A stretch of 64,000 nucleotides of DNA from Planctomycetota bacterium (GCA_016207825.1 JACQZI010000014.1:3183-67182), one strand, 5' to 3'; positions 4,572 to 50,547 are shown, counted from the first letter of the stretch. Made by a program: numbers and translations. The notes: generated by a model from the letters alone, not told the origin.

Positions 4572-4640
4572 ATCCTGGTAAATTGATTAAGCTGATAAAA
4601 CGGAGCGGGCTTGAATCCGCTTACCATATGAGGTAAAATT

Positions 4641-7751: not shown

Positions 7752-7827
7752 TCGCACTTAAGCATACCTTATCCCCAATCTCTCATATGATACGCGGGAA
7801 ATATCCCAAAAAAGCCCGGTATTTTTC

Positions 7828-7856
7828 TTGATAGGAACAGTTTTTTTCTCTATAGT
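7828..7856 (+). promoter_or_regulatory. Sigma70-type promoter of the MHS transporter
   Basis: TTGATA (7828-7833), 17 bases, TATAGT (7851-7856), followed by a leader of roughly 55 bases to the ATG at 7919. Confidence 0.55.
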
Positions 7857-7918
7857 AACTGTTTGAAAATAATAAAGACAGGGCCTATCAGAGTTGCCTC
7901 TTGAGAGAGCCTTTCCAA

Positions 7919-9337
7919 ATGAATAATGAACCTGACGAGCTTCAAGAAAATCCAGGCGGCGAAACGGATAATCCCAGCTATCTATCTTATGCCATGCGGG
8001 CCCGCCTGAAAATCAGAGACCGCTATCGAGAGGTAAAATCTTATTATTCAAGGAAAAATGTTATTGCCGGGGTAATCGGAAACGTCCTGGAGTGGTATGA
8101 CTTTGCCGTTTTTGGATATTTTGCCCCGATTATCGGAGCTCATTTTTTTCCGTCAAATAATCGGTTAACTTCGCTATTAAGCGCGTTCGGCGTTTTTGCC
8201 ATAGGCTACTTCGCCAGGCCCATCGGCGGCATAATCTTCGGCCGCATGGGCGATAAAGCCGGCCGTAAAGTCGCTCTCCAGATTTCCGTGATGCTGATGG
8301 CAATCCCGACGTTCCTGATAAGCGTCCTGCCGACTTATGCCCAAATCGGCATGCTCGCTCCGATTTTACTCATAATATTGCGCCTATTGCAGGGAATATC
8401 TGTTGGCGGAGAGTTTATCGGCTCAATATGTTTTACCACCGAGACCGCCCCCGCAAATGAACGCGGTTTTTGGGGAAGCTGGACGCAAGGCAGCCTTATC
8501 GGAGGAATCCTATTAGGGTCTCTGGTCGCAGCAATAATCCAGGCAGTTATGCCGCCAGAGTCATTAGCCAGTTGGGGCTGGAGATTGCCGTTTTTAGCCG
8601 GCTTGGGAATAGGAATATTCGGCTTATGGATGAGGACCGGATTATCCGAATCTTCAGATTTTACCAATACAAAAGAAACCACTGATGCCAGCCGAAATCC
8701 TATTATGGACGCTATCAGGGAATTTCCATTGCGTATTTTTCATATTGCTATGTTGGTAATACTCTCCGGCGGCGGTTTTTATTTATTGTTTGTCTGGTGG
8801 CCGACTTTTTTGGAGGATGAGATGTCCCCGCCGATTAATTATGCCTTTGCGACTAATGTCATTTCCATGCTTATATTAATGCTCATGCTTCCCGTAACCG
8901 GATGGCTTTCCGATAAATGCGGGCGTAAAGCATTGCTCATACTCGGCTCACTCAGCATGATTATTGCCGCTTATCCGCTTTTTATGCTGATAAAACAACC
9001 GACCTTTGGTTCGGTCTTAGCTGCTCAATTAACATTCGCCGTATTGCTCAGCCTTTTTATGGGTCCGGTATCGACGACATTAGCGGAAATGTTTCCTTCC
9101 CGGGTGCGTTATAGCGGCATTGCCTTAGGCTACAATATATCTTTATCTTTGTTTGGAGGAACGGCACCGCTTATTGCCACCTGGCTCGTATTCCATTTTA
9201 ATGATATGACTGTCGCCGCTTATTACCTGATGGTGATGGCGTTTATCAGCCTAATGGCCGCATTAACCCTGAATAAAGGAAACAGCTCTGAAATGGACAA
9301 AACCATTGCGGATAAAGAAGAAATAACCTTTAAATAA
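7919..9337 (+). CDS. MFS transporter, metabolite:H+ symporter (ProP-like) family
   Basis: About 472 residues from the ATG at 7919; an in-frame TTG at 7901 is an alternative start. Twelve hydrophobic segments are apparent. Family marks are 'GNVLEWYDFAVFGYFAP' in the first helix, the motif-A loop 'GRMGDKAGRKVAL', 'RLLQGISVGGEFIGS' in helix 5 and a repeat of the loop as 'GWLSDKCGRKALL' in the second half. This is the MHS branch of MFS, which imports osmolytes or carboxylates with protons (proline/betaine, citrate, ketoglutarate). The substrate cannot be told from sequence. It stands alone with its own promoter; the hydrophilic N-terminal extension of about 45 residues is somewhat long for the family. 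Confidence 0.88.
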   Translation: MNNEPDELQENPGGETDNPSYLSYAMRARLKIRDRYREVKSYYSRKNVIAGVIGNVLEWYDFAVFGYFAPIIGAHFFPSNNRLTSLLSAFGVFAIGYFARPIGGIIFGRMGDKAGRKVALQISVMLMAIPTFLISVLPTYAQIGMLAPILLIILRLLQGISVGGEFIGSICFTTETAPANERGFWGSWTQGSLIGGILLGSLVAAIIQAVMPPESLASWGWRLPFLAGLGIGIFGLWMRTGLSESSDFTNTKETTDASRNPIMDAIREFPLRIFHIAMLVILSGGGFYLLFVWWPTFLEDEMSPPINYAFATNVISMLILMLMLPVTGWLSDKCGRKALLILGSLSMIIAAYPLFMLIKQPTFGSVLAAQLTFAVLLSLFMGPVSTTLAEMFPSRVRYSGIALGYNISLSLFGGTAPLIATWLVFHFNDMTVAAYYLMVMAFISLMAALTLNKGNSSEMDKTIADKEEITFK

Positions 9338-9394
9338 TACTTTATGCCCCAACCCGCATATTAATCCGTATCCAGAGCGCATTATCGGTTTATA

Positions 9395-9422
9395 TTGACG
9401 GAGCGCCTTTTATTATTATAAT
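9395..9422 (+). promoter_or_regulatory. Sigma70-type promoter of ileS
   Basis: TTGACG (9395-9400), 16 bases, TATAAT (9417-9422), about 39 bases before the ileS ATG. No T-box-like leader fits in the remaining space. Confidence 0.55.
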
Positions 9423-9461
9423 ATGTTAATTTTACTAATCCTACTCTAAATAAATATCCTT

Positions 9462-37034: not shown

Positions 37035-37109
37035 TAAAAACCTGATAGCCCGGAGCGGCAGCGAGTGCGTCCCCGGAATTACACGAACTAATGAACTTAC
37101 ATTAATTTA

Positions 37110-37138
37110 TTGCCAAACTTCCCATTAAAACGTAAAAT
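37110..37138 (+). promoter_or_regulatory. Promoter of the SIR2-like gene (duplicated promoter, copy 1)
   Basis: TTGCCA (37110-37115), 17 bases beginning AACTTCCC, TAAAAT (37133-37138). Nearly identical in boxes and in the first eight spacer bases to 39492-39520. About 200 bases of leader, including GC-rich hairpins, separate it from the start codon. Confidence 0.6.
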
Positions 37139-37337
37139 CCGAATAATTAAGAAAGCGACCAAAGAGAGCCCCGACCCAACATGGCCCTCGTATCCCGAAG
37201 GGAGAAGGGGGTGGCTTCGGGGGCGTCCCCCGAAATGTAAGAGTAGAATCGGGAATTGAGTAAGATTCATCCTGCCGCCTTTAGCGAGCCTCGCCTATGG
37301 CGGGAGCGGAGTCGAAGGGGTGTCACCGGAATTAAGA
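37139..37337. other. Long GC-rich leader of the SIR2-like gene
   Basis: No gene. It contains GC-rich inverted repeats (around GGGGGCGTCCCCC at 37219-37231, and GCCTCGCC...GGCGGGAGC near 37285). Such elements recur in other spacers of the window; here one appears inserted between a promoter and its gene. Confidence 0.45.
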
Positions 37338-39275
37338 ATGAATTCATCATTTCATACAATCTGTATAGGTGAAGATATACAATCATATGATAGTTTGGTT
37401 AAGGAAACTTCCGCTGAGTTTCAAAAACGTAATGTGCTTCTTTTTACCGGTGCTGGCATTTCCACAGGAGAACCTTCGTCTCTTCCACTAGCAGTTGAAC
37501 TTATTAAACCATTGGTTTCAGAATTTAAGAAAGCAACTCAATTATTTCCCGAATTAAATAAAATCGACTCAAAAGATAAAAATCTGGCGTTCGCCACGCT
37601 TGAAGAAGCCAGATTGGAACGTCTTCTTGACGCACTCTACCGTGTTTATAAAGAACCGGCTTTAGATTACATTTCTGTTCTAAATGGCGACGAATGCAAT
37701 ACCAATCATAATGCAATTGCCGCATTGGCAAAAAATAATTTCCTACCCGTTTGCATAACCCTTAATTTTGATTTGCTAATTGAAAAAGCAGTGGGGTCTT
37801 GTGAAATTGAATGTCCATTATCGACCCCCTCAAAAATTCCTTTTGGCACATCGAACCCTATTCTTAGAGTAATAAAACCGCATGGCACTTTTACTGAAGG
37901 CGATGACCCATATAAATATCTTGCGGCAACATTGTCGGATATCGGTTCCGAACCGGCATATAATACCATTAGGGTAATTTCGGATGCAATCGATAAATCC
38001 AGTGTCTTGCTGGTAGCCGGTTATAGCGATGATGATTGGGATATTTTCCCTATTCTCGTAAAAAAAACTAGTTCTGCTAAGAGACTAAAGAAAATAATAT
38101 GGGTTCAATATATCAGTCCTAAAACTATTGAACGACGAAAAGCAGGACTAGATGAAATTTCAGAGAGAGTTTATAATTGGCTTAGTAATTCAAATATAGA
38201 AGCTGTTATTCTTATTGGAGACATTAGGCAATTTCTTATTGATACACTTGAATCTTTATCTATTACGATATCACAGCCTAAGGGTGGAGTGAAAAAACAC
38301 CCAGATATCGCACCATTCAAAGCCGATAATGATCCGAATAATGCTCAATCAATAAAAACCGCATTAGCACTGGCTTATATTATTCATCAAACAGGAGAAT
38401 ATAGTGAAAAACTTCTTTGGTTGTTGCATAATAACTCAATAATAAAAAACACACCTCATTTATTATGGCAGGTTGAAGATTTGCTTGGGCATATGTACCA
38501 TACTTATGGCAAGTTAGAGAGAGCTATTCGTCATACAAAACAAACTATATCAGCCAAACAACACCCAGAAGTTGAATTATCTGTTGCTAAAGATATTGTT
38601 TGGCTTGGGTATGAATATTTATGCCTTTCGAAAAGGCCCAATCCGCTCCGACCGCTTCGACTTATTAAAATCCCATATTGTATTTTCAAGGGTATGTATT
38701 TACTTAAGAAAGGAATTTCCTTAGCCAAAACAAATGAAGAAAGGAAAAGCCTTAAGGGACTGGCCGCATATTATCGAGTGGATCTATTGCATAGCTGGGG
38801 AAATATTTTAATGCTTTTTGGGTGTTATACCGTACGTATTTTTGCTTTTTATTTCCGTTGGATTGAATCGTTATATAGCGATATCGATAAGAATTTTGAT
38901 GTAATGAAAACGGCCTACTATTGGTTGCGTCATTTAGAGACAAAATTGCTTGGTAGAAAATTTATTGATAAAAAAGAGCTTAAAGAAATAAAGGATAGGC
39001 TTGATGAATTACAAATTCAGAACGACTTAGTGCAAAACAATCCTCAATCCGGGAATACGCGTGCTTATCGAGCTTTGCTTTATTATCTGATTGATCATAA
39101 TATGGGTAAGGCTAAAGAGGAAATAAACGGGTCTGACAAAGAATGGAGAAAAAAGTGTAAAGGAATAGCATCTGGTTGGAGACGCACTGTGCTTTTTAAA
39201 CGATTTATTGGTTTGAAAAAACCGACTTTTCTTGATGCATTATGGTTGTTCCTAAAAGAAGCTGATGCTACCTGA
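37338..39275 (+). CDS. SIR2-like NADase-type domain protein, probable defence protein
   Basis: About 645 residues from the ATG at 37338 (GTG at 37320 is an in-frame alternative). The N-terminal 300 residues are a SIR2_2-like fold: 'VLLFTGAGISTGEPSSLP' near residue 33, 'PVCITLNFDLLIEKA' near 140, 'RVIKPHGTFTE' with the conserved His, and 'SVLLVAGYSDDDWDIFPIL'. The C-terminal half is helical and TPR-like ('LLGHMYHTYGKLERAIRHTK'). SIR2 domains joined to helical sensors act in several anti-phage systems by depleting NAD. AT-rich and in the accessory island; the same promoter type drives the next gene. A specific system could not be assigned. Confidence 0.8.
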   Translation: MNSSFHTICIGEDIQSYDSLVKETSAEFQKRNVLLFTGAGISTGEPSSLPLAVELIKPLVSEFKKATQLFPELNKIDSKDKNLAFATLEEARLERLLDALYRVYKEPALDYISVLNGDECNTNHNAIAALAKNNFLPVCITLNFDLLIEKAVGSCEIECPLSTPSKIPFGTSNPILRVIKPHGTFTEGDDPYKYLAATLSDIGSEPAYNTIRVISDAIDKSSVLLVAGYSDDDWDIFPILVKKTSSAKRLKKIIWVQYISPKTIERRKAGLDEISERVYNWLSNSNIEAVILIGDIRQFLIDTLESLSITISQPKGGVKKHPDIAPFKADNDPNNAQSIKTALALAYIIHQTGEYSEKLLWLLHNNSIIKNTPHLLWQVEDLLGHMYHTYGKLERAIRHTKQTISAKQHPEVELSVAKDIVWLGYEYLCLSKRPNPLRPLRLIKIPYCIFKGMYLLKKGISLAKTNEERKSLKGLAAYYRVDLLHSWGNILMLFGCYTVRIFAFYFRWIESLYSDIDKNFDVMKTAYYWLRHLETKLLGRKFIDKKELKEIKDRLDELQIQNDLVQNNPQSGNTRAYRALLYYLIDHNMGKAKEEINGSDKEWRKKCKGIASGWRRTVLFKRFIGLKKPTFLDALWLFLKEADAT

Positions 39276-39491
39276 ATGTTGATAGTCACCACGCTTTGGA
39301 GCACACTTTTCCAAAAACAGCCTTGTTCTCTTGAAACAGGCACCTATCCCTGAAATCCTTGATTTTCTCTATCCACAAAGCTCTTTTTCTCAATTCCGGA
39401 GCGAAGCGACTTCCCCGCGGAACATAGTGACGTCCCTTTAGGGAAAGCGTAGCCAGGTGGGATTAATCAATCAACTAATTAACTAATATTA
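39276..39491. other. Spacer between SIR2-like and HhH-like genes
   Basis: No gene seen. Contains a GC-richer patch (about 39401-39460) of the dispersed intergenic type, flanked by AT-rich DNA. Confidence 0.4.
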
Positions 39492-39520
39492 TTGCCAAAC
39501 TTCCCTTCGAATAGTAAAAT
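39492..39520 (+). promoter_or_regulatory. Duplicated promoter, copy 2 (before 39570)
   Basis: TTGCCA (39492-39497), 17 bases beginning AACTTCCC, TAAAAT (39515-39520), then GGTAATTAAG. Matches the promoter of the SIR2-like gene and suggests duplication and joint control. Confidence 0.6.
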
Positions 39521-39569
39521 TCTTGGTAATTAAGTAAAACGTCCCCCAAAAGCACGGAATTATAACGAA

Positions 39570-40148
39570 ATGTCTAACAAATTAAAGAATTTAGCCAGGA
39601 TTGTTGAGTGGTATAAGAAGAGAGCTCGTTTCAATCCTGACGATTATTCTAACGGTTCACTTGAAGAACGTATTAGAAAGATTTATACATTTCCCCACCA
39701 GCGGAGGGTTAAAAAATCAGTTAAAGACAGAGTAAAGAAAAAGCTATTGCGCAATGCAAAAGCAATCAATAAATGTAAAGACTTTAATTCTCTTTATAAC
39801 ATAGTTGAGGAAAACAGTGTAAAGGGGTTTGGGGACTTATCTATTTACGATACCACTATGATGATTGGCTTCCGCAAAGGAATCCTTCCTGATAAAGTCT
39901 ACTTACATCGTGGGACGCGTAGGGGGGCGGAAATATTACTAGGAAGGCAGCTAAGTAAAACTTCCTGTCTTTTAACAGATGAATTAGATATCTTATTACG
40001 GAAACTAAAACCATACCAAATAGAAGACCTTTTGTGTATCTGTAAAGACGATTTTAAACTCAGGAAAGTTACAAGCGCTATATTGAACAAACGCCACGGC
40101 GAAAGAACATGTGTTGTAAAAAAGAAAACTAAGCGAAACTCTTGCTAA
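39570..40148 (+). CDS. Hypothetical protein, possible helix-hairpin-helix domain
   Basis: 192 residues, very basic at both ends ('HQRRVKKSVKDRVKKK' and a Lys/Arg-rich tail). The middle 'GFGDLSIYDTTMMIGFRKGI' continuing 'LPDKVYLHRGTRRGAEILLG' resembles an HhH-containing glycosylase-like domain seen in small uncharacterised proteins (recollection, not a search). I infer nucleic-acid binding from this and the charge. No signal peptide or membrane segment. It lies in the AT-rich island between the SIR2-like gene and the GHKL operon, with its own promoter. Confidence 0.65.
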   Translation: MSNKLKNLARIVEWYKKRARFNPDDYSNGSLEERIRKIYTFPHQRRVKKSVKDRVKKKLLRNAKAINKCKDFNSLYNIVEENSVKGFGDLSIYDTTMMIGFRKGILPDKVYLHRGTRRGAEILLGRQLSKTSCLLTDELDILLRKLKPYQIEDLLCICKDDFKLRKVTSAILNKRHGERTCVVKKKTKRNSC

Positions 40149-40170
40149 AAACATAAAATCAAAGTAGAAT
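40142..40170 (+). promoter_or_regulatory. Promoter of the GHKL/receiver operon
   Basis: TTGCTA (40142-40147), 17 bases, TAGAAT (40165-40170), about 55 bases before the ATG at 40226. The boxes resemble those of the two promoters upstream in the island (TTGCCA/TAAAAT). Confidence 0.5.
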
Positions 40171-40225
40171 TTAGGCGTTGATGAAAATCCGAGATTTGTT
40201 AGAATAACCGATTTAAAATACGCAT

Positions 40226-42505
40226 ATGGAGAAATTTAAGTTTACAGTTGATAGTGCTTTGCTCAGTGAATTGGGGGAAAAATTAGTCGAATTTCCTCAC
40301 ATTGCTTTGGTTGAATTAGTTAAAAATGCTTATGACGCCGATGCAACACGGGTAGATATAAAGTTTATTGAGCAAAAAACAGGTGCCCCAGAAATCCATA
40401 TTATCGATAATGGACATGGCATGACATTAGATGATGTTAAAAATTATTGGATGAGGATTGCCACAACAAATAAAATCAAGAATAATTATTCTCCATTATA
40501 TGGTCGTCCTAAGACAGGAGAGAAAGGTATTGGACGATTTGCTTGTCGACGGTTAGGATTGCATTTAAAGCTTATTACAATTGCAAAATCAACTGGGAAT
40601 AACTATGAAAGGACAGAGGTTGAATTTCTGTGGGACCATTTTAAAGCCGGGAAAGAAGTTACAGAGATAGAATGCCCGGGGAAAAATGAAAAAATAAAAG
40701 ATGCGCAAACAGGAACCACTTTAATTATCAGTAAGGGGCAAAAAAATGAGTGGCAAAAAAGAGGTTATGACTTTGCAAAAAGACAATTCTGTTTGCTTGC
40801 TATTAATAGAGGCGAAAAAAGGAAAGGGTTTGCAGAAGACCCAGGCTTTAATATTTTTATGACTTTTCCACAAATGGAAGGTACAACAGAAGCGATTGAT
40901 ATGCGTCAACAAGTTATTTCAGGTGGTTGGGGGGTGCTTAAAGGACATGTTGATAGTAAAGGTAACGCAACTTATACCCTAGATGCATTAGATATTGGGG
41001 AAAGAACTTTTAAGAGCTCTGAGGAATACACAAACCTAAAAGACGTCACAATGGAAATAGGAATAATTCCCGGTAGTAGAAAAGACCAATATAAAGACCC
41101 AAAACTATTAAAAGAAGAATACAAAAATTCAAATTTGCTAAAAGATTGGGTAGTTAAAAACTTCTTAGATGATTGGGGTGGTGTTCAGGTTCGTTTCAAA
41201 GGATTTAGGGTTTATCCCTATGGAGATGATGATTGGCTGGATATTGATAGGGATAGAGCACTAAGCAAAGGAGCGTCAGAATCCAAGGAGCTTGAAAAGG
41301 TTGTATACACCTTCAATAATGTAGTACTTCCTAGCCGTTATTTACTTAGTTTGCTTTCGATGCGTAGTTATGTTGGTTCGGTTAATATTGGTGAAGGTGC
41401 GACCGGATTTGAGATGAAAGCCAGCCGAGAAAAATTTGTAGATTCAAAAGCAACTGAAGAATTAAAGAATTTCGTACGGTATGGTATTGATTGGGCAACT
41501 ATTCTCAGGGATTATTACAAAAGATTAAAAGAAACGAGTAGTTCAGAAAAAGCTGCTGAAAAACTAGGTGAAGTAATCGGCAAAAAAGTAGGCCCGGAAA
41601 AAGTTGTTGAGGCCGCTACCGCCTATCTAAAACAACAAGTTGATAGCATATCCAATCTATTACCAAAGAATAAGAGAGAAGAATTAGAAAAATCCATTCC
41701 AGCGATAACGAATTCTATTTTAAAATATGACAAATTGAAAACTGGTGAATTACATCACTTAAGATTAGTGGCCTCAACTTCTACACTGCTAAATATTTTT
41801 GCTCATGATGTAAAATTATTCACTGGTTCATTAAGTTCCAGTCGCGTAAAATTAAAAGATCTCGAAGATAGAGTTTCTGCCAAGGACAAAGAATTCATTA
41901 AAGAAATACGTAATGGTTTAAATGATTCTAAAAAAAGATTTAATGATCTTTTAGAAATGACAGCTCTTATTGGCACGGAAAATATATCCACACCGCCTCA
42001 GCAATTAGCACTGTTTGATAGAATCGAATCAGCCGAAAGATGCTTTAAACCAATATTAGATGAATATCATATTAAAATTAATTATGATCAAGTCCCCAAA
42101 AATTTATTGGTCGGTCCAATGTTGGAAGGGGAATTATATGCGATTCTTCTTAATACTCTTTCTAATTCAATTAAGGCTGTGATAGCTGAGGGACAAAACA
42201 AAATAATTGAAATTGCGGCTACAATGGTCGAGAAAAAAGCTAAACTAAATATTCGTGACAGTGGAATTGGATTAGATGAAAATCATTTTGATGATGTTTT
42301 TATTCCTTTTATTGCTGATCCTACAAATAAGCTATACAAGGAATTAGAGAAAAAAATTAATCCCAGGGATAAATATATTGTGGGGATGGGAAGTGGTTTA
42401 GGATTAAGTATCGTTAAAGATATCGTAAAATTACGTAAGGGGGAAATCAGATTTGTGAAACCAACAGGTAACTGGAAAACCGATTTGGAGGTTATTTTAC
42501 CATGA
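40226..42505 (+). CDS. Double GHKL protein: Hsp90/MORC-like ATPase fused to histidine kinase core
   Basis: 759 residues. N-terminal GHKL ATPase: 'ALVELVKNAYDADATRVDI' (about 28-46), 'HIIDNGHGMTLDDV', 'TGEKGIGRFACRRLG' (about 97-111), as in MORC/Hsp90/MutL-like proteins. A long middle region follows. From about 510 there is a kinase-like helical pair with 'LNIFAHDVKLFTGSLS' (candidate phospho-His near 526) and a second GHKL domain: 'ILLNTLSNSIKAVI', 'NIRDSGIGLDENHFDDVFIP', 'GMGSGLGLSIVKDIVKL'. No membrane segment, so it senses an intracellular cue. Its stop overlaps the start of the receiver gene (ATGA). Likely a sensor kinase of an unusual cytoplasmic signalling or defence unit. Confidence 0.85.
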   Translation: MEKFKFTVDSALLSELGEKLVEFPHIALVELVKNAYDADATRVDIKFIEQKTGAPEIHIIDNGHGMTLDDVKNYWMRIATTNKIKNNYSPLYGRPKTGEKGIGRFACRRLGLHLKLITIAKSTGNNYERTEVEFLWDHFKAGKEVTEIECPGKNEKIKDAQTGTTLIISKGQKNEWQKRGYDFAKRQFCLLAINRGEKRKGFAEDPGFNIFMTFPQMEGTTEAIDMRQQVISGGWGVLKGHVDSKGNATYTLDALDIGERTFKSSEEYTNLKDVTMEIGIIPGSRKDQYKDPKLLKEEYKNSNLLKDWVVKNFLDDWGGVQVRFKGFRVYPYGDDDWLDIDRDRALSKGASESKELEKVVYTFNNVVLPSRYLLSLLSMRSYVGSVNIGEGATGFEMKASREKFVDSKATEELKNFVRYGIDWATILRDYYKRLKETSSSEKAAEKLGEVIGKKVGPEKVVEAATAYLKQQVDSISNLLPKNKREELEKSIPAITNSILKYDKLKTGELHHLRLVASTSTLLNIFAHDVKLFTGSLSSSRVKLKDLEDRVSAKDKEFIKEIRNGLNDSKKRFNDLLEMTALIGTENISTPPQQLALFDRIESAERCFKPILDEYHIKINYDQVPKNLLVGPMLEGELYAILLNTLSNSIKAVIAEGQNKIIEIAATMVEKKAKLNIRDSGIGLDENHFDDVFIPFIADPTNKLYKELEKKINPRDKYIVGMGSGLGLSIVKDIVKLRKGEIRFVKPTGNWKTDLEVILP

Positions 42506-43014
42506 AGAAAAAAATGATATTTTTATGGATAGAAGACAATCAAAAACGTCAAGCTGATTATGCAAGGACTTTGGAAAATAAATCTTTTAGAGGTATCCCA
42601 AAGGCCGAAATTGATTTTAAATTAGTTAGAGGGATGGATATAAAAGAAGTATTAGATGGAATAACCAAAGCATATAGAAGAATACCCCCCAATCTTATTA
42701 TTATAGACCATTTTTTGGATAATATTAAAGGCGGTTTTATAGAAGACAACAAGACTAATGGTACCTCTATAGCTTTGCTTCTAAGAGAAAAAGGATTAAA
42801 TTGCCCCATTGTTGGAATAACAACCGCTGCAAATATACGCAGGATCCCTATTTCTAATAATACTAAAGATATATATGATGATTTTATAGATGCCGATGAC
42901 TTTGAGGAATATTTCGAGGATATTTTTGTTCTGGCAAATGCATTTAGAGTTTCGAAAAAAGTCCCCTCCGATAAGTCTAGGTTTTTAGGCTTATTAAAAA
43001 CCCAAAACAATTAA
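42502..43014 (+). CDS. Atypical response-regulator receiver protein (5' part of a frameshifted gene)
   Basis: 170 residues before a stop. Receiver features: acidic pair Glu11-Asp12 ('FLWIEDNQK'), phosphoacceptor Asp69 in 'LIIIDHFLDN' and Thr in 'VGITTAAN'. The usual C-terminal Lys is not visible ('YDDFIDADDFEEYF'). The gene starts inside the kinase stop (ATGA overlap). The frame ends at 43014, but a -1 frame continues without a stop from 42981 to 43517. One extra A in the five-A run at 42996-43000 would join them into a 338-residue protein. I regard this as one gene with a frameshift, natural or from sequencing. Confidence 0.8.
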   Translation: MKKKMIFLWIEDNQKRQADYARTLENKSFRGIPKAEIDFKLVRGMDIKEVLDGITKAYRRIPPNLIIIDHFLDNIKGGFIEDNKTNGTSIALLLREKGLNCPIVGITTAANIRRIPISNNTKDIYDDFIDADDFEEYFEDIFVLANAFRVSKKVPSDKSRFLGLLKTQNN

Positions 43015-43517
43015 GAGAACAATTAATACAAGTACTGCCTACTGATTTAAGTTCAAGCTGGCTATCAACTCTATACAAATGGGTCAGAAATAGTTTTTTT
43101 GGTAAACCAGGATTCCTATATAATAAATTGTGGGCTGCAACCTATCTCGGTTTAAATGAAAAAGGTTTTGAGAAAGTAGAAAATATTTTTAAGGATGCAA
43201 AATATGAAGGGATCTTTGCAAACACGTCAAAACCTCGTTGGTGGCCAATGAAAATCAAGGATTTATTGTATCAAAAGATTCACGAAAAGCATAGCGGTCT
43301 AACATGGGAACTTGGGCATTTTTTAACCCCGCCAATCACTAAGAATGATTTTTCTAAATGTTATGTTTGTGAAAAAGATTATCCAGAAATCGTGGGATAT
43401 ACAGATGAATCATTAAAAAAACAATATCCCATGCATATTAGATGCTCAGAACCGATTGTTAATCTCGAAAAAGATATGTTCTTTGAAGAGAAACGAAAGC
43501 AAAAAAGGAAAAAATGA
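42981..43517 (+). CDS. C-terminal zinc-ribbon-like part of the frameshifted receiver gene
   Basis: An open frame directly continuing the receiver gene after a one-base shift; the first ATG-independent residues read 'NPKQLREQLIQVLPTDLSSS'. The first usable ATG of its own would be an internal TTG/ATG near 43128-43247 without a ribosome site, so separate translation is unlikely. It contains 'RWWPMKIKDLLYQ', 'LTWELGHFLTPPI' and a Cys/His set 'CYVCEKDYPE' ... 'MHIRC' that could bind zinc. The tail is Lys-rich. Its stop overlaps the next start by ATGA, which again argues that the three genes were one translationally coupled operon. Confidence 0.7.
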   Translation, partial: VFRLIKNPKQLREQLIQVLPTDLSSSWLSTLYKWVRNSFFGKPGFLYNKLWAATYLGLNEKGFEKVENIFKDAKYEGIFANTSKPRWWPMKIKDLLYQKIHEKHSGLTWELGHFLTPPITKNDFSKCYVCEKDYPEIVGYTDESLKKQYPMHIRCSEPIVNLEKDMFFEEKRKQKRKK

Positions 43518-44227
43518 GCATAAATACCACATTTCCTACGCCGGTTAAATTAATCCAAGAAGAAATAAAAACACTGAAGTTCTTGATGAATCAAACAAGA
43601 ATATCACAGTTTTGTGGCGATGCCGGAAGGGCATACAGTGTATACAATAAATACCCTCAATTGATCCGAAAAAATCAACTAAAAAACTTTAACTTTTATT
43701 TTAATACATTTTTCGATGTTCCTTGCGCTGATATTGGTTTAACTCTACGAATATTTGTAAATGCAGATGTTAAAATACAAAATAACAGTTATGAAAAAGT
43801 GTGTTATCATTTAATAGTTACGAAAAAAGCCAGAAGGAGCCAGGAAGAACTACGTTACACATTATTTAGAAATTTTCATTTTGACTATAATCCTAAAGCT
43901 AATGAAAGTGGACATCCATTTTTTCATTTACAGTACGGAGGAGGAACGGGTCGCTCGTTCGGGGCCGAATATGCAATTAACATCACTTTTCCAAGTATAG
44001 ATTTGCCTCGTATCTCTTATAAGCCCATGTCATTAGCATTATTAATGCAAATAGTTTTTATGCATTTTTATGATGAAAATGTTGTAAAACTACGTGAAGA
44101 CAATGATTGGAAAAGCATTCTATGGAATAATGAACAGCTATGCTGGAAAGACTACTATGCTGAATGTTCTGCTTATTTAAATTCAGAGGAAAAACATATA
44201 CTTTGTAATCATTTCTGCGGGAAATAA
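43514..44227 (+). CDS. Hypothetical protein, third gene of the GHKL operon
   Basis: 237 residues, no signal peptide, no membrane segment. The start overlaps the previous stop (ATGA). The most distinctive stretch is 'FRNFHFDYNPKANESGHPFF' followed by 'HLQYGGGTG', a His/Asp/Gly-rich pattern in a predicted beta region that might be a binding or active site. I do not recognise the family with confidence. Being last in an operon with sensor-kinase-like and receiver-like proteins, it is a candidate effector. The convergent methyltransferase gene ends 21 bases away. Confidence 0.7.
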   Translation: MSINTTFPTPVKLIQEEIKTLKFLMNQTRISQFCGDAGRAYSVYNKYPQLIRKNQLKNFNFYFNTFFDVPCADIGLTLRIFVNADVKIQNNSYEKVCYHLIVTKKARRSQEELRYTLFRNFHFDYNPKANESGHPFFHLQYGGGTGRSFGAEYAINITFPSIDLPRISYKPMSLALLMQIVFMHFYDENVVKLREDNDWKSILWNNEQLCWKDYYAECSAYLNSEEKHILCNHFCGK

Positions 44228-44248
44228 ACTTACTTTAACTAAAACTGC

Positions 44249-45565
44249 TTAGTATTTATAATAACCATTCCAAAGCGGTAATTCTTTCAATGCAGTAACT
44301 GTAAGATGTCGACACCTTATTCTTTTATCTAACCATTTTGTGGTTTTATCGCATTTTAGACTGTTAGTTAACTTCTTACACTCACTAAGTAATTTATTAT
44401 ATGGAGTCAGTACTATTAAATGATTCTCAGCCGCAACCTTCTTTTTACCGGCAATTATTGTTGATATAATGCGCTTTTTTTCGTCCGGTCTAGATGTTCT
44501 GCGAATAACAACAAATGGAGGAGAGAAAAGTTTTCCGGAGAATTTACGATAGTTTTTAAATCTTTTAACAATTCCGTCTTTAGGTAATTCGCGAGCAAAA
44601 ATATATCTGCATTTTAAACCCTTTTTAATGTCTCTATGTGGGACAACAGCTCCGACATTAACATCAAATAAATCCTTAACCCGTTTTTTAGATTTAATTC
44701 TCGGCAAAGCCCAAAAACCTTTTCTTTTATTTCCTTTATCTTTCTTCACAGTTAAATGCAATATAAAGACATCAATATCGGTCAATTTATCGAATTGCCC
44801 CACAACTTCTATCTTAGTTATTTTTGCCAGCGAAGAAATTAGTTTTCTCCATTTTTCATATCGTGAGCCAGTCCTTAAAACATCTGGTAATATTGCAGAA
44901 ATATGACTTCCTGAAGGGTTAGAAGTGAGACATTTTTCAATAAAAACCGCTGCAGTTGAAACCTTTCCGCATGCCCAAGTACATCCATTTGGTGCCTTCA
45001 TCATTGTAAAGGGAGGATTAATTAAGATATGCTTCTTTTCTTTGGGTTCATTAGTTATTGAAAGAAAATTACCAGTTTGAATAAAAGGAAATGTATTAGA
45101 TAACAAACAAGGATTTTCTTTATTTACAGGAAGCCCGCGCAAAATTGCCAATAATGCAAGTCGAATCTTTGTTAGATGGACAAGTTCAGGGTAAATATCA
45201 TAGCCTCTAATCTGTTTCCCCCAATTTGTTAAAGTAGTTTTAAGGTCGTTGCCCAAGGGTAATCTTGCCGCATATGCTACAAGTAAATCTCCGGCACCGC
45301 ATGCGGGGTCAAGTATCGTCAATTTATTAGAATAATTATTGAAAGGGATTTTACATGTTTGTTTTGCTAGTTCCTTACCGGTAAAAAATATGCCTGATGA
45401 TTTTTGAGTATTTAAATTAACTAAACGACGTAACTCTCTACTGGGTTCCCCATTTAGAGCGGCAAAAACTTGTTTGTTATGTGTTTTATTTAGATTACGA
45501 AAGGAATCAAGAAGTAATGTTTCTGTGTTTCTAACATAACTTTTAAATTGATTAAGGTGATTCAT
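44249..45565 (-). CDS. N6-adenine DNA methyltransferase (HsdM-like)
   Basis: About 438 residues from the ATG at 45565 (an in-frame start at 45586 is less likely). SAM-binding motif I 'LTILDPACGAGDLLVAYAA' near residue 90, catalytic motif IV 'HILINPPFTMM', and a C-terminal part resembling a target-recognition region ending 'HLTVTALKELPLW'. 'QKSSGIFFTGKELAKQTC' before motif I is typical of type I/IIG methylases. No restriction subunit or specificity subunit is recognisable beside it, so it may be an orphan or work with the convergent operon. AT-rich like the island. Confidence 0.87.
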   Translation of the reverse strand: MNHLNQFKSYVRNTETLLLDSFRNLNKTHNKQVFAALNGEPSRELRRLVNLNTQKSSGIFFTGKELAKQTCKIPFNNYSNKLTILDPACGAGDLLVAYAARLPLGNDLKTTLTNWGKQIRGYDIYPELVHLTKIRLALLAILRGLPVNKENPCLLSNTFPFIQTGNFLSITNEPKEKKHILINPPFTMMKAPNGCTWACGKVSTAAVFIEKCLTSNPSGSHISAILPDVLRTGSRYEKWRKLISSLAKITKIEVVGQFDKLTDIDVFILHLTVKKDKGNKRKGFWALPRIKSKKRVKDLFDVNVGAVVPHRDIKKGLKCRYIFARELPKDGIVKRFKNYRKFSGKLFSPPFVVIRRTSRPDEKKRIISTIIAGKKKVAAENHLIVLTPYNKLLSECKKLTNSLKCDKTTKWLDKRIRCRHLTVTALKELPLWNGYYKY

Positions 45566-45624
45566 AACAGACCGCCTGACAAACACATGGTCTTTCTAAG
45601 AATAAGGAATAAATGTTTATCGGA

Positions 45625-45653
45625 ATTATACGATGGTTAGAATATAAAAACAA
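45625..45653 (-). promoter_or_regulatory. Promoter of the methyltransferase gene
   Basis: Minus strand: TTGTTT (45648-45653), 17 bases, TATAAT (45625-45630), with about 52 bases of leader to the ATG at 45565. Confidence 0.5.
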
Positions 45654-45798
45654 TATAATCACTATATAAACCATCTAGATATTTAGCTAATCCGGGGACA
45701 GCTAATCCGGGGACACGTACTAATTTCCGTTTAATTCGTTGCTTGAATTTCCCCGTCTTCTACTTCCCGTTTTTCCGCAAAGGTAGTATCAATACGCC

Positions 45799-46128
45799 AA
45801 AGAGGTAGTACTCCACTCGTCTAGGGCTAATACTCCATTCGTCTAGTGTCAGTATAGCATTCGTCAAGGGGCGGTATACGATTCGTATATAACCGGTACT
45901 GCATTCGTCTAGTGTCAGTAGACCATTCGTCAAGGGTTAGTAGACGATTCGTCAAGGGTCGGTACAACATTCGTATATGACCGGTACCCGATTCGTCAAG
46001 GGTTGGTACACGATTCGTCTAGGGTCACTATAGCATTCGTATATGACCGGTACCCGATTCGTCAAGGACCGGTACGGCATTCGTCTAGGGCCGGTATTCG
46101 ATTCGTATATAACCGGTACACCATTCGT
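45799..46128. repeat. 22-bp tandem repeat array 1, fifteen units
   Basis: ATTCGT recurs at exactly 22-base intervals fifteen times (ends at 45820, 45842, 45864 and so on to 46128; the first unit has ACTCGT and no unit gains or loses a base). The 5' four bases of each unit are one of three types (CTAG, CAAG, ATAT), followed usually by GGTCGGTAC or ACCGGTAC and two or three variable bases. The unit starting ATATGACCGGTACCC occurs twice unchanged. A degenerate unit may precede at 45777. 22 bp is not a multiple of three, so this is not coding, and there are no spacers, so it is not CRISPR. Confidence 0.95.
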
Positions 46129-46499
46129 TTAGGGGGTGAGATACCGATTCAGGCGTGATATATATAAACCAGAGGGGGGGAGTAGATACCCCCTCCATCC
46201 CGCCTTGCGACTAGAGGAAGGGCGGGATTCCGGGGACTGTAGCCCCCTCCGTCCCTTGAGGGACTTCGGGGACGCCAAATCAATTGTATTATAGCAGGGA
46301 CAGCCCCCTCTCTATTCCTTCGGGGACTATAGACAGCAGTCATCCCGTGAGGGATAGCCCCCTATGCTATCCCCCATAATTTTTAAAATGTAAAATTTCT
46401 TTATAATTTTGTAAACTATTTTTACACTAATTTGGCTAAAAAACAAGCTATAAAGGCAAACAGTCGGATAAAAACGTTTTAAACGGCCTTTCGGGCGGG
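46129..46499. other. Spacer with GC-rich dispersed motifs then an AT-rich block
   Basis: 46140-46370 holds several copies of a short motif of the type GGGGACTRTAG next to CCCCCT runs, also seen at about 13755 and 14920. 46376-46450 is AT-rich with GTAAA/TTTAC repeats. No gene is credible; minus-strand open frames here are repeats. Confidence 0.5.
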
Positions 46500-46516
46500 T
46501 TGGCATGGAAATTGCT
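46500..46516 (+). promoter_or_regulatory. Sigma-54-type -24/-12 promoter
   Basis: TTGGCATGGAAATTGCT fits the consensus YTGGCACG-N4-TTGCW with one mismatch (T for C), and GG and GC are separated by the required ten bases (46502-46503 and 46514-46515). It points at the frameshifted gene beginning at 46676. The 22-bp array lies 370-700 bases upstream, where enhancer-binding sites for sigma-54 activators are usually found. Confidence 0.6.
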
Positions 46517-46540
46517 ATATAAGTAGTATGCAGTGCCACC

Positions 46541-46620
46541 TTTACGGCTAATAGGCCGTAAAATGGAAAGTACCCGTATCCCGTACGGCGAGAATGGGAA
46601 TTGCCCCGGCATTCGCCGGG
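46541..46620 (+). repeat. Hairpins in the leader of the frameshifted gene
   Basis: TTTACGGC-TAATAG-GCCGTAAA (46541-46562) and CCCGGC-ATTC-GCCGGG (46605-46620) are perfect stems in the presumed 5' untranslated region. They could regulate translation or simply be dispersed palindromes. Confidence 0.55.
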
Positions 46621-46675
46621 ACGCCCGATTGATACTACGTCGAATGGGCGGGACGGAAAGAAGGTGATTTTACGT

Positions 46676-47201
46676 ATGGTGTACGCACCGCTTTTATGAC
46701 TCTAACGACTACGATGGGGACGACGAATACTCCTATCAGGACGAACTTGATAACAAGTTCTTCCACGGGAAACCTTCAAACCAAAAACACCGCTTTACAT
46801 TAAAAGACATCGTATTTTTAATCGCCCGCCTTTCCAACCCTCGTGATGATAAACTGCCCCTTATCCAGGATTATTACATAATAGATTGCAAAGGAAGCAC
46901 CCTTTGCCGAAAATACCGCATAAGGCGCAAACGACTCGCCGGATTCCTTAGAAAAGTAAAACGGGAGTATAACTGGCTGGTCCACCGCCATGAAGGCGAA
47001 TTAATCCCCTTTTCCTTTAAGGAAATCATCTGCCTGGTCGGGCGCATCACCATTTCGTTATCCCCATGTGAAATACGCTGGTCTCAGGGTTATTATGATA
47101 CGGACGGCGACTGGCGAAAGACCTGCGAGAAGTGCAGCATACCCAAAACCACCCTTTTCCGCTTTTTAAGGTGTAAAATACGCCAGGCATTCCTTAATTA
47201 G
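46676..47201 (+). pseudogene. Frameshifted gene for a protein with two repeated HTH-like domains
   Basis: The ATG at 46676 has a good ribosome site (AGAAGGTG) but reads only seven codons to TGA. One base less in the TTTT run at 46692-46695 would join it to a long stop-free frame to the TAG at 47201, about 175 residues in all. The protein is basic and internally duplicated: 'FTLKDIVFLIARL' ... 'LAGFLRKVKREYN' is echoed by 'FSFKEIICLVGRI' ... 'LFRFLRCKIRQAF', each about 60 residues and resembling DNA-binding helical domains. It follows a sigma-54-type promoter and the 22-bp array, so it may once have bound that array (inference). No ATG-started long frame exists here. Confidence 0.65.
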
Positions 47202-47540
47202 CGGCTTTTTCTCTCTCCCCGCTACGTTGCCCCCTACCCCATGCTTCGGGGACTCCCCCCACCTACGCCATGGCTACGGGGGGACGACCAATATATCCTT
47301 GGGTAGGGTCAGCCTATTAATATTACGCAGAATGGGGCACTTAGGGGACGCTCATATTATATTTATTATTGTAGGAGCAGTCATTCCCACTTTGTCCCCA
47401 CGCTAAAAACACCCTCTTTCCAACTCCTTTTATTTTAAGCCATTGGAAACAGGCTCTTTTTCTCCATTCCCAAATGCGGGAATAATTCCATAAGGATGGA
47501 GGGACAAACGAATGGCGAATAGCGAATTCGGAATGTTGAA
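47202..47540. other. Gene-free stretch
   Basis: GC-rich motifs of the dispersed type at 47215-47300 (runs of CCCC, GGGGACTCCCCCC) and then mixed sequence. No convincing gene on either strand; a minus-strand open frame at 47341-47652 has no ribosome site or protein-like composition. Confidence 0.45.
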
Positions 47541-47563
47541 GTCCTCCAAAGGAGGGTAGAAAG

Positions 47564-47959
47564 ATAAGAAAAATTGAAGCCATCCCGTTAGAACGGGACG
47601 TCACTGACGTTCCGAAACACCCTGATGAACTGACCACCTTTGAGTTCATCAACAGGCACCTTTACCAGAGGGCGCTAAAAGGCGCTTACCGGAATGAATT
47701 AGAGCTGGTTAAGGAACGGCTATCGCCTTCGCTGGATTCGTTCAAGGACGCGGAGGAGTTTATGAAGGCAATGCGGAAAGATCATGACCTTAAGGAAAAA
47801 ACCGTCCGGGAACTGAAACAACTCTGGAAAAAGGACTATGACCTCAGGCCCGCGACAGGCGTAATCCTGATGCTGGCATTGTGGATTAATGCCCCAGCTG
47901 CCAGTGAGAATTACTGGTATAAATTGTTTGTCGGGCTGGAAGAAGGAGGTGAAGCATGA
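47564..47959 (+). CDS. Hypothetical helical protein, apparent ATA start
   Basis: An open frame begins at an in-frame stop near 47540 and runs to 47959. AGGAGGG lies eight bases before an ATA codon at 47564, exactly where an ATG would be expected; the first ATG is not until 47762, with no ribosome site. From the ATA the product is 131 residues, highly charged and helical ('ELTTFEFINRHLYQRALKGA', 'EEFMKAMRKDHDLKEK'), with a hydrophobic 'GVILMLALWINA' near the end. Its stop overlaps the protease ATG (ATGA), so the two were coupled. Either ATA is used or the start has been lost. Function unknown. Confidence 0.55.
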   Translation: MRKIEAIPLERDVTDVPKHPDELTTFEFINRHLYQRALKGAYRNELELVKERLSPSLDSFKDAEEFMKAMRKDHDLKEKTVRELKQLWKKDYDLRPATGVILMLALWINAPAASENYWYKLFVGLEEGGEA

Positions 47960-48168
47960 AACGCGTAATGTTTATAATAATCTTAGGGATTTTGGGAATC
48001 GGGCTGACAGCATGGGCGACTAAGCCGCCCGAACTCCCGCCGGATGTGATAATCATCCGCCCCTTATCTACTAAGGACAACCCATATCAATGGGAATATG
48101 ATGAAATGCTTAGCCCGACAGTAAGAATCACAACTGCCAATGGAATAGGGTCTGGCGTTGTGATTCAG

Positions 48169-48239
48169 AGTTCAATAGTTTCAAAGTTTAATAGTTCAAA
48201 AGAAACTCTTGAACAGTTGAACAATTCAACGGTTGAACT
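48169..48239. repeat. Repetitive palindromic insert in the protease gene
   Basis: Short alternating copies of AGTTCAA and TTGAACT (AGTTCAA at 48169 pairs with TTGAACT at 48233; GTTCAA...TTGAAC forms an inner hairpin). The segment stays in frame and encodes an Asn/Ser/Glu/Leu-rich insert just before the catalytic His block. Confidence 0.6.
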
Positions 48240-48787
48240 TTACGTTTTGACTGCTGCTCATGTGGTTGGGAATTACGCCAAGGTAGATGTGACATTCTAC
48301 GATTATAGCCACGAAGGCACTAAGACACTAAGCGCTTCTGTAGTTATTACGGATACGCTTAAAGATTTGGCATAGCTTAGTCTGAAAGCTGACAACTATA
48401 ATCTAAAAACTGCTGCGTTAGCAGATAGGGATTATCAATATTATCTGTTTGCCCCTGTTTATGTCGTTGGTTGCTCGTTAGGTTTATCTCCAAGACCGTC
48501 TTCAGGAATCATCTCGGCTATTAACTTTGATTCGGTGGAAGTTTCCGCGCCTATCTTACCCGGTAATTCCGGTGGTCCGGTTTACACGGCAGATACGCAC
48601 GAGTTAATCGGTATCGCAGTATGGGTTCGGTTATGCGGTAATCAACTTGTTACTACCATGGCGGGTATCGTGCCCATCTCGGAAATATACGATTTCCTGG
48701 ATTCAGCCACCAAGACTCTAAGACACCAAGAAAAACTTAGTGACTTTGTGCCTTCGTGGCAAATAAACCACAGGAAGGAGTTAGACT

Positions 48788-48880
48788 ATGCTGAAAGTAA
48801 TGTCGAGTTTCTGGCTGGGTGTGGTCAGGGCGGTTATCAAAATCGTTTTGGCTCTCATCCGGAAGAAAATAGAAAAATAA
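48788..48880 (+). CDS. 30-residue hydrophobic peptide with strong ribosome site
   Basis: AGGAAGGAG (48772-48780) lies seven bases before an ATG opening 30 codons: 'MLKVMSSFWLGVVRAVIKIV' then 'LALIRKKIEK' and TAA. It is a single hydrophobic helix with a basic tail, typical of small membrane peptides or type I toxin-like peptides. It is in a different frame from the protease remnant. The ribosome site is among the best in the region, which suggests real translation. Function unknown. Confidence 0.5.
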   Translation: MLKVMSSFWLGVVRAVIKIVLALIRKKIEK

Positions 48881-49102
48881 TCGCCACTCATAGGCAGTTA
48901 CAGGCGTTAAGGGGTACTGTGAACTCTTTGGCGCAACTGCGTATAGAGAGCGTTAAAAATATAGCCACGCCCCTTACCTGTTGGAAGGGACTCCCTATTA
49001 TTCGGGTGTCCCTGAAGTGCAACGGAGCGGGGGAAAAGCACAGAAGTCCCCCGATGTCATCTCGGGGGGCTCTGTGTCTCTGTGGCAAAAGGAGAATGTA
49101 AG

Positions 49103-49900
49103 ATGAGTATCACAAGAATATGGATAAAACTGGCTATCAACCCGCTGACACAGGCAGTGCCTAAAATGGCAGAGCTCTGGTCAGAGGGCTTGACCGGTAA
49201 CGCGGATAAGCTGATTGAACGCCTTAAGGCGGTCATCCCTGACGAAATGTCCTATCTTTCCAAGATGGCGGAACCTGCCGAGCAGGCATACCAGAATGTG
49301 CTTGACCCGGCTTTTGTCAGCCGGAGAGGCAAGAACAAGTCCAAAATAAATGCCAGCCAGGCATATAAAATCAAACGGGCATGGGCAAAATACCTGCGGA
49401 ACCTGGACCATGCGTTTGAGACCGTTGACGGCGTCACCGCCAAGCGGTTCAAGGATAATGTTATTGCCGCCAAGGAAGATTATGCCGAAAGGTTGAGCGA
49501 AAGCACGCTTGCCCTGACAGGCATTAAGGCCCTGGAATCCGGTCCCGCAAGGATTGCGGTTTATTGGCTGTCCGGCGACTCCAAAGCCAAAGGGATGATG
49601 AGGGCGGCAGACCTCTACATGGCGCCGAGCGAACCCTTTAACGTCACCACGGCGGAAAAGAAGAATTCGCTCCGGGTGCTTTTGATTTCCCGGCTCATAC
49701 AGGGCGGTATATCAATCATCCAGGGTGGAATGGGCATGCCCCTAATAACGGAAGTCAATACCCTCTTGAACTCGCTGGTTCAGGGGATGGTTGACCCGGC
49801 ATTGGGGCTGGAAAGCTTTGCTCCGGGCGGTGCTTCTCACTTGGACTTCGTCAAGGATAACGGACAGTTGTTTTTGTCTGTTAAGGTTTCTCAGGTATGA
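49103..49900 (+). CDS. Hypothetical protein of an orphan family
   Basis: 265 residues from the ATG at 49103 with AAGGAG ten bases upstream (a GTG in frame at 49082 overlaps that site). The protein is helical and basic in the first 130 residues ('KINASQAYKIKRAWAKYLRN'), then has a Gly-rich amphipathic segment 'LIQGGISIIQGGMGMPLI' and a C-terminal 'GASHLDFVKDNGQLFLSVKV'. No known domain recognised and no signal peptide. The same C-terminus occurs as a remnant at 15032-15133 on the minus strand, proving a family. Neighbours are broken genes, so its context is accessory. Confidence 0.65.
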   Translation: MSITRIWIKLAINPLTQAVPKMAELWSEGLTGNADKLIERLKAVIPDEMSYLSKMAEPAEQAYQNVLDPAFVSRRGKNKSKINASQAYKIKRAWAKYLRNLDHAFETVDGVTAKRFKDNVIAAKEDYAERLSESTLALTGIKALESGPARIAVYWLSGDSKAKGMMRAADLYMAPSEPFNVTTAEKKNSLRVLLISRLIQGGISIIQGGMGMPLITEVNTLLNSLVQGMVDPALGLESFAPGGASHLDFVKDNGQLFLSVKVSQV

Positions 49901-50271
49901 ACTATACCCCTACGCTGCCCCTCACGGGATATCTGCTGATTACGCTACGGGTACGCCTGATTATGTAACTGTTGTAGAGCCGAGTGAGCCAGGTATAAGC
50001 TACCATGATGAGTTGGTCCCCGACCCTGCTTTGTGGGGTCGGGGAGGCTCATTCGCACGGACGTCTTTATATTATGTTGGGACACTCTCTTTCCTTATCG
50101 CGGAGGGATTTCCTTGCATTTCTCAATGATTATGATAGATTAAGCCGCTAAATGAGTGACCCACACACCTAAAAACCATAAGTATATACAATTGATTGAA
50201 TGGTTTTAGGTCTGGGGTTTCGCTCCATGAAATCTAATACTATAAAAAGGCACTAATGTAAATGGAGCTCA
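49901..50271. other. Spacer with hairpins
   Basis: CCCCGACCC/GGGTCGGGG forms a 9-bp stem at about 50019-50044. ACCTAAAAACCAT (50167-50179) and ATGGTTTTAGGT (50200-50211) form an imperfect inverted repeat around an AT-rich loop just before the zinc-ribbon gene. An overlapping open frame to 50129 starts inside the previous gene and is not credible. Confidence 0.45.
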
Positions 50272-50547
50272 ATGTCAACAAATGATACTGATTTTACCTG
50301 CCCGCACTGCGGGACTAATCTGCCCGCCAATGCCACCTCCTGCAAGGAATGCGGCTCGGATAAATCCACCGGCTGGGCTGAGGATGCCGCTGATTCCGGC
50401 ACGGATATCCCCTCCCAATTCACCGACGCGGATTACGACGACTTCGTCAAGAAAGAATTCGGACGGCCTTTCCTCCTCAACCCCTGGTTCATCATAACAA
50501 CCTTTATAATACTATTATTGATTTTCTTGATGATATTCTACCGATAA
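50272..50547 (+). CDS. Small zinc-ribbon protein with C-terminal membrane helix
   Basis: 91 residues. A rubredoxin-like zinc ribbon at the N-terminus ('CPHCGTNL' ... 'CKECGSDK'), an acidic linker, and a hydrophobic helix at about 70-89 ('WFIITTFIILLLIFLMIFYR'). Tail-anchored topology with the ribbon in the cytoplasm is likely. It precedes galT, whose promoter lies inside its last codons. Function unknown; such proteins are frequent in planctomycetes. Confidence 0.72.
   Translation: MSTNDTDFTCPHCGTNLPANATSCKECGSDKSTGWAEDAADSGTDIPSQFTDADYDDFVKKEFGRPFLLNPWFIITTFIILLLIFLMIFYR

Follow-up and report, generated by a model that had tools for sequence, protein, structure and literature searches.

A conserved histidine kinase-receiver operon linked to DNA modification genes on a Planctomycetota genomic island: a probable phosphorelay-gated restriction module

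What might a microbial cell achieve with a histidine kinase and a receiver protein whose genes are packed together with that for a protein of an unrecognised family and lie next to a DNA methyltransferase gene? We addressed this question for a locus in a 64,000-nucleotide stretch of DNA from a Planctomycetota bacterium (GCA_016207825.1, JACQZI010000014.1:3183-67182; one strand), hereafter referred to as the window. Three tightly packed genes are present on its plus strand between positions 40226 and 44227 (Table 1). Judged from its sequence and those of its relatives, the unit is most likely an immune system that would destroy foreign DNA lacking the mark, and only once a phosphate has been relayed.

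Table 1. Position, strand and basis of assignment of the features of the locus (window coordinates).
Feature	Position	Strand	Basis or remark
Inserted genomic island with the unit	37045..50296		Absent at the same site in the congener G001
SIR2_2-domain protein	37320-39275	+	E 7e-7; same island
Small ADDT-like protein (amino acid:DNA transferase)	39570-40148	+	E 2e-5, sub-threshold; 78 bp 5' of kinase gene
Promoter-like site TTGCTA-17-TAGAAT	40142..40170	+	5' of kinase gene; consensus match 9/12
paraMORC-type histidine kinase, 759 aa	40226..42505	+	Pfam; conserved motifs of both ATPase sites; His527
Receiver (REC) part before the frameshift	42502..43014	+	E11, D12, D69; relatives; L010 fold
Receiver-gene C-terminal part, -1 frame	43012..43517	+	YxGxF..RWW motif, CxxC..HxxxC; one open frame in relatives
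Third protein, putative restriction effector, 237 aa	43514..44227	+	HMM family in 43 relatives; structure model
N6-type DNA methyltransferase (DPACGAGD, NPPF), convergent	44249..45586	-	Pfam N6_Mtase E 4.2e-6; PADLOC oMTase E 1.3e-12

An initial annotation of the window had noted ATGA overlaps between the three genes (42502-42505 and 43514-43517) and an AT-rich island around them; the overlaps are present, and the GC content of the island (32-38%) is indeed set apart from that of its surroundings (mostly 42-53%). In G001, the flanks that match window positions 37044 and 50297 are only about 160 bp apart, and the window therefore contains about 13.2 kb of extra DNA. Since promoter-like matches across the region are no commoner than in shuffled sequence, we regard the promoter-like site in front of the kinase gene as weak.

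The protein encoded by the first gene comprises, in this order, a HATPase_c_3 domain, an S5-like middle part with the motif GFRVxPYGxxDDDW, a DHp-like part with His527, and a HATPase_c domain. Both GHKL ATPase domains that the initial annotation had recognised were recovered with Pfam (residues 23-136, E 3.7e-25, and residues 636-747, E 2.5e-17), and the phospho-accepting histidine suspected there is found in an H-box-like 'FAHDVK' ahead of the second ATPase. The counterpart of His527 is invariant among 35 aligned relatives, and the residues of both ATPase sites vary little or not at all across the kinase group. With a predicted phospho-acceptor histidine near the residues of the N, G1 and G2 boxes (N643, N647, G680, G722-G726), the protein is a two-component kinase by its predicted features. 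The HEF_HK profile (PF19191) did not match the window kinase or three of its relatives at E values up to 1; it matched 3 of 35 kinases sampled across the wider group. A search of E. coli DNA and a single-protein scan of viral contigs with the window kinase alone gave no match.

Glu11, Asp12 and Asp69, the receiver residues reported for the second gene, are present. The position of Asp69 is identical in 44 of 44 aligned rows, and the acidic pair is conserved in 86-97% of them. For the structural work, from which plasmid-derived rows were excluded, we used the intact receiver of the relative L010 in place of the frameshifted window gene; its model adopts a CheY-like fold (VIA Z 13.5, rmsd 3.3, 129 aligned). 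This modelled receiver fold, its acidic pair and a predicted phospho-acceptor aspartate are those of a two-component receiver. Response_reg_2 (PF19192) did not match the receivers of 40 relatives at E values up to 0.1, and PF00072 matched six. The Cys/His zinc-like site pointed out earlier is real (CxxC...HxxxC) but confined to 7 of 44 receivers, and no DNA-binding family was consistently matched by the C-terminal domain.

The second gene had been treated as a single open frame from 42502 to 43517; this view had to be abandoned, since frame 1 ends at 43014 and the remainder is in the -1 frame. The frame change is located within about 30 nucleotides 5' of this stop. In every relative examined, gene 2 is a single uninterrupted frame of about 305-412 aa, and the L008 protein ('...DLLKSSEEDGEKIKKILP') aligns across the break with '...GLLK' followed by 'PKQLREQLIQVLP' of the window. 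Since the relatives align over the break, gene 2 of the window is a single gene whose frame is shifted by one base. The shift may be a mutation or an assembly error, and the sequence fits either. We rejected a programmed frameshift because the shift interval contains no in-frame X-XXY-YYZ slippery heptamer and the relatives are intact. The window copy may therefore be inactive or misassembled. That it represents a decayed or assembly-broken remnant, which would be compatible with any of the functional readings considered below, is a serious but somewhat doubtful prospect: the receiver gene is frameshifted, and an in-frame stop is present in a protease gene of this island some 4 kb distant, whereas the rest of the unit is intact, with its conserved residues retained, and a single-base assembly error would look identical.

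The third protein, which the initial annotation had left without a family, has no match in Pfam, NCBIfam or PADLOC, nor was a PDB match found for its family. We refer to it as family A. Its members share the motif HxD...HPxxHx[QHT]...PR, represented in the window protein by H122, D124, P135, H138, P165 and R166. An AlphaFold model of fair to good quality (pLDDT 81, pTM 0.80) begins its strand order with four long, consecutive strands of antiparallel type; H122 and D124 end the fourth of these (112-125), and H138 is within the fifth strand (137-141). Foldseek comparisons of this model with the PDB and with viral structures gave no match at an E value of 0.001, and the best VIA hit reached Z 4.1 with an rmsd of 4.2 over 78 residues; the missing structural match does not prove that the modelled fold is new. 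Motif, family and structure searches recognised no nuclease motif or fold, and a tblastn search of phages with one family member gave no match. From its place in the operon, we nevertheless regard this protein as most likely the effector, probably a nucleic-acid-cleaving enzyme of an unrecognised fold. Two more specific assignments were rejected. The HxQ element resembles a Rep motif, but an HUH-type nickase is speculation, with no Rep among the matches listed by Foldseek or VIA; and a TumE-like protein (PF20126) was matched by Pfam in 0 of 42 members, the family being absent from the 40 nearest genomes.

A search of plasmids by tblastn retrieved full-length relatives of the kinase with the same companion genes in Halomicrobium, Hymenobacter and Rhizobium; in the Halomicrobium plasmid, the third gene is missing from the annotation table. 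A profile of these plasmid-found kinases led to 80 genome loci and 29 viral loci. The gene 3 HMM detected family A in 43 of the kinase-found relatives (weakly in L044 and L069), each time directly 3' of the kinase and receiver genes. Because these first loci had been found via the kinase, we performed a reverse search with gene 3 alone in 1,577 genomes of four phyla. It yielded 12 new places, one of them the Halomicrobium plasmid already found, and thus 11 independent loci; receiver and kinase adjoin in 10 of these and a modification gene in all 11. The exception to the kinase-receiver linkage is L130 (G206; 4069-5930, minus strand), where a truncated family A protein of 130 aa is encoded next to an N6 methyltransferase gene, with neither kinase nor receiver. 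Per phylum, the family was present in 2 of 392, 3 of 395, 2 of 398 and 9 of 392 genomes, the highest count being that of the archaeal phylum to which the haloarchaea belong.

Kinase, receiver and third gene are strictly linked in 44 loci, and their order and overlapping ends recur in more than 50 loci over bacteria and archaea. Co-occurrence of the three genes in other genomes, named in the initial annotation as the finding on which its reading would stand or fall, was thus assessed, and the linkage holds. The operon is a real, conserved unit with a patchy distribution over bacteria, archaea and viral contigs; the gene set is rare yet widespread among microbes, and the window contains one copy of it. 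A chance clustering of unrelated genes within a defence island would account for the SIR2-like and ADDT-like genes that share this island, but it is already contradicted by the recurrence of order and overlaps, including in loci found through the third gene only, and we consider it scarcely credible. The SIR2 gene, formerly considered a member of the unit, does not recur (one distant match in any other locus). We discarded both the SIR2 and the ADDT-like genes as components, with no counterparts of either beside other copies; the ADDT-like protein also matches aGPT-Pplase3, again sub-threshold.

The examination of neighbourhoods proposed in the initial annotation gave a divided answer: while SIR2 fell away, the methyltransferase recurs. 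This gene, omitted from the unit at that time, is now counted in; in the window, it ends 22 bp beyond the third gene and has intact motifs, and the predicted N6-type enzyme would supply the DNA modification activity expected of a restriction-modification (R-M) system. An N6-type methyltransferase gene is located within 1.2 kb in 36 of the 44 loci, mostly overlapping or no more than 210 bp away, and is placed downstream in line (16 loci), upstream in line (11), convergently (5) or divergently (4). L044 possesses an N6_N4 methyltransferase fused to an Mrr-type domain, and three loci in this count (L021, L091, L092) are cut by contig ends. The one locus of the 44 that lacks a modification gene without being cut is L011 from Halolamina, where the kinase gene is split in two frames (6971-9441, plus strand) and no methyltransferase is found within 4 kb; this copy has possibly decayed.

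The sspBCD genes are present directly upstream, in the methyltransferase's stead, in L017 (Tannerella forsythia), L018 and L051, and the reverse search added a fourth case (L128/L149). All four loci are from Bacteroidota, with sspB-sspC-sspD followed by kinase, receiver and third gene. SspD of L017 was identified with PADLOC (E 2.7e-91), scores far higher to SspD than to BrxP, and is 58-60% identical to its counterparts in L018 and L051; SspB of L018 matches PDB entry 6juf (E 8.8e-23). For SspC, a large P-loop protein between SspB and SspD, the assignment comes only from its place, its P-loop and mutual homology. The kinase tree groups L017, L018, L051 and the truncated L021 in a single clade with strong support, nested among the methyltransferase-linked members, which suggests that methylation was swapped once for phosphorothioation while kinase, receiver and third protein were retained. 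As these neighbourhoods indicate, the modification gene is part of the unit, and this would make the unit R-M-like rather than Detocs-like.

Exchange is also seen at the third slot. In sister operons, this slot is filled by HNH proteins (7 loci, by Pfam), metallo-beta-lactamase-fold (MBL) proteins (5), Vsr (4) or HhH-GPD proteins (2), and in 12 further sister loci by a second unrecognised family, family B, with the motif RxE...HxxxHxQ. A fully supported branch of the kinase tree separates families A and B from HNH, MBL, Vsr and HhH. We did not accept family B as a relative of family A by direct comparison, since the motif order aligns but the hhalign probability is 5%; because B falls inside A in the kinase tree (support 88), the two are likely, though not proven, to be related. 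Modification and effector genes are thus swapped around a constant kinase-receiver core. Vsr and HhH-GPD proteins are typically mismatch-repair rather than restriction enzymes, and the third slot need therefore not mean restriction. The MBL-fold proteins are found in L050, L052, L059, L062 and L072, which have the same kinase type. In L065 and L077, the slot holds an HhH-GPD/endonuclease III-like protein, a possible counterpart of Vsr acting in repair at deaminated methylcytosine. The long receiver C-terminal domain of the family A loci was not detected in HNH or MBL operons, whose receivers comprise about 210-240 aa; a function in dealing with the third protein would be consistent with this.

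We infer the defence role, the signal, the phosphotransfer and the effector activity from these comparisons, and judge it probable that the locus is an R-M-like defence module whose restriction activity is gated by a His-Asp phosphorelay, the effector being the third protein. The modification part, an N6-type methyltransferase or, in some relatives, SspBCD, would mark host DNA, and the MORC/MutL-like ATPase of the first protein would probably engage DNA or another sign of foreign DNA. When unmodified DNA is sensed, the kinase would autophosphorylate His527, the phosphate would move to Asp69 of the receiver protein, and the C-terminal domain of the latter would license, release or recruit the third protein, the putative restriction effector, which would then damage nucleic acid. 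The cytoplasmic phosphorelay, the fusion of a MORC-like ATPase to a kinase core and the effector role of the third protein are carried over here from the initial annotation, whereas its SIR2 and Detocs-like elements are not. Several observations speak against gated restriction: the third protein is devoid of a recognisable nuclease motif or fold, Vsr and HhH-GPD proteins occur in the third slot of sister operons, the receiver gene of the window is frameshifted, and the Halolamina locus combines a split kinase gene with the lack of a methyltransferase within 4 kb.

Receivers usually control transcription, and kinase and receiver might instead control expression of the methyltransferase and the third gene, as an epigenetic or establishment switch with a third protein that neither cleaves nor kills. 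The third protein's want of a known nuclease motif would agree with such a regulatory role, as would the proposal, in passages of PMC8011034, that the sister pair is a possible controller of R-M systems. We consider it unlikely: the C-terminal domain of the receiver matches no DNA-binding family consistently, the varying position of the methyltransferase (upstream, downstream, convergent, divergent) argues against one shared promoter, and the operons contain no other constant restriction gene, while nucleases occupy the third slot of sister operons.

Detocs follows the logic of kinase, receiver and effector, and the same logic would suit abortive infection, in which a phage-sensing phosphorelay would cause the third protein to kill or arrest the cell through a non-DNA activity (e.g., as an RNase or nucleotide hydrolase), the modification gene being merely an accessory or a self-mark. 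The H, D, H, R constellation of the third protein would suit many hydrolases, and the MBL-fold proteins of sister operons could act on nucleotides; yet modification genes are nearly always present and can be swapped for sspBCD, which suggests that DNA is told apart by its marks, and we hold abortive infection to be improbable. In Detocs, which is a phosphorelay defence system, sensor and effector differ from those of the unit, the effector being of the phosphorylase type, and the system is not known to include a DNA-modification gene; kinase, receiver and third protein gave no match to the Detocs models in PADLOC at the thresholds used.

The closest described counterpart of the gated restriction module that we favour is the HEF_HK/Response_reg_2 pair (Bellieny-Rabelo et al., 2021; PMC8011034), which likewise has a kinase with HATPase_c_3, DHp-like and HATPase_c parts beside a receiver, near methylases and nucleases, and which passages of that paper link to R-M systems, mostly C5-cytosine methylases with Vsr or HNH. 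Since the window proteins match neither PF19191 nor PF19192, their lineage is a sister of this pair and no member of it by definition; the third family, sspBCD and archaeal members are likewise not found in these passages. The linkage of an N-terminal GHKL and S5-like module to methylases and nucleases is shared with the paraMORC/MORC ATPases of R-M operons (Iyer et al., 2008; PMC2292703); these paraMORCs were described without kinase core or receiver, often with helicases or fused nucleases instead. The sspBCD genes of the SspABCD-SspE and SspABCD-SspFGH systems are also those found directly upstream of the unit in four relatives; where one would expect a restriction partner, these loci possess the kinase-receiver-third gene module in place of SspE or SspFGH. 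Among 2,678 sspBCD sets, sspFGH occurs in 7.3% and sspE in 7.4%, together about 15% (PMC8092258). Type-4 BREX offers a precedent for replacement of a methyltransferase by SspB/C/D-like phosphorothioation genes (PMC12839542); it is defined by PglZ and BrxL, and its likeness to the unit is this phosphorothioation swap. Passages of a prediction paper from 2026 (PMC13092281) name HATPase and REC among the domains of its highlighted predicted defence systems, and the unit may in part have been predicted there. We found no paper in the open-access literature that ties sspBCD to a kinase/receiver pair. While the sister group has been known since 2021, the lineage, the effector family and the sspBCD version appear new to the open-access literature searched.

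More tentatively, with a likelihood that we place a little short of even, the unit would represent a separate class of immunity dependent on DNA modification. A single phosphorelay restriction module, whose effector is from a new protein family, would operate equally with base methylation or with DNA phosphorothioation, and SspBCD would have a third restriction partner in addition to SspE and SspFGH. A classical restriction enzyme cleaves unmarked DNA as soon as it meets it; the gated module would add a checkpoint to the restriction barrier, in which phosphate first has to pass through kinase and receiver. Restriction would be switched by His-Asp phosphotransfer, and MORC/MutL-like DNA clamps would be linked to signalling. 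Many sspBCD clusters are without a known restriction partner (PMC8092258), and for some of them the module, present beside four sspBCD sets, is a candidate. With no entry in Pfam, NCBIfam or PADLOC, the third family is a concrete place to look for a new enzyme.

Several minor features were noted in the course of this analysis. A near-identical promoter-like stretch (TTGCCA-17-TAAAAT, 'TTGCCAAACTTCCC') is found 5' of the SIR2 gene (37110) and of the ADDT-like gene (39492). The copy of the unit on the Hymenobacter plasmid (L003, 1216-6871) adjoins genes for a Piwi-domain protein and a large DNA methyltransferase. The window possesses a trypsin-like protease frame at 47956-49101 (plus strand) with its in-frame stop after 'TLKDLA', which is either a second broken gene of the island or a sequence error. 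Between the methyltransferase gene and the far end of the island, positions 45808-46134 are occupied by a degenerate tandem array with about 15 copies of a 22-bp unit (GTACACCATTCGTCTAGGGTCG) and a higher-order period of 66 bp.
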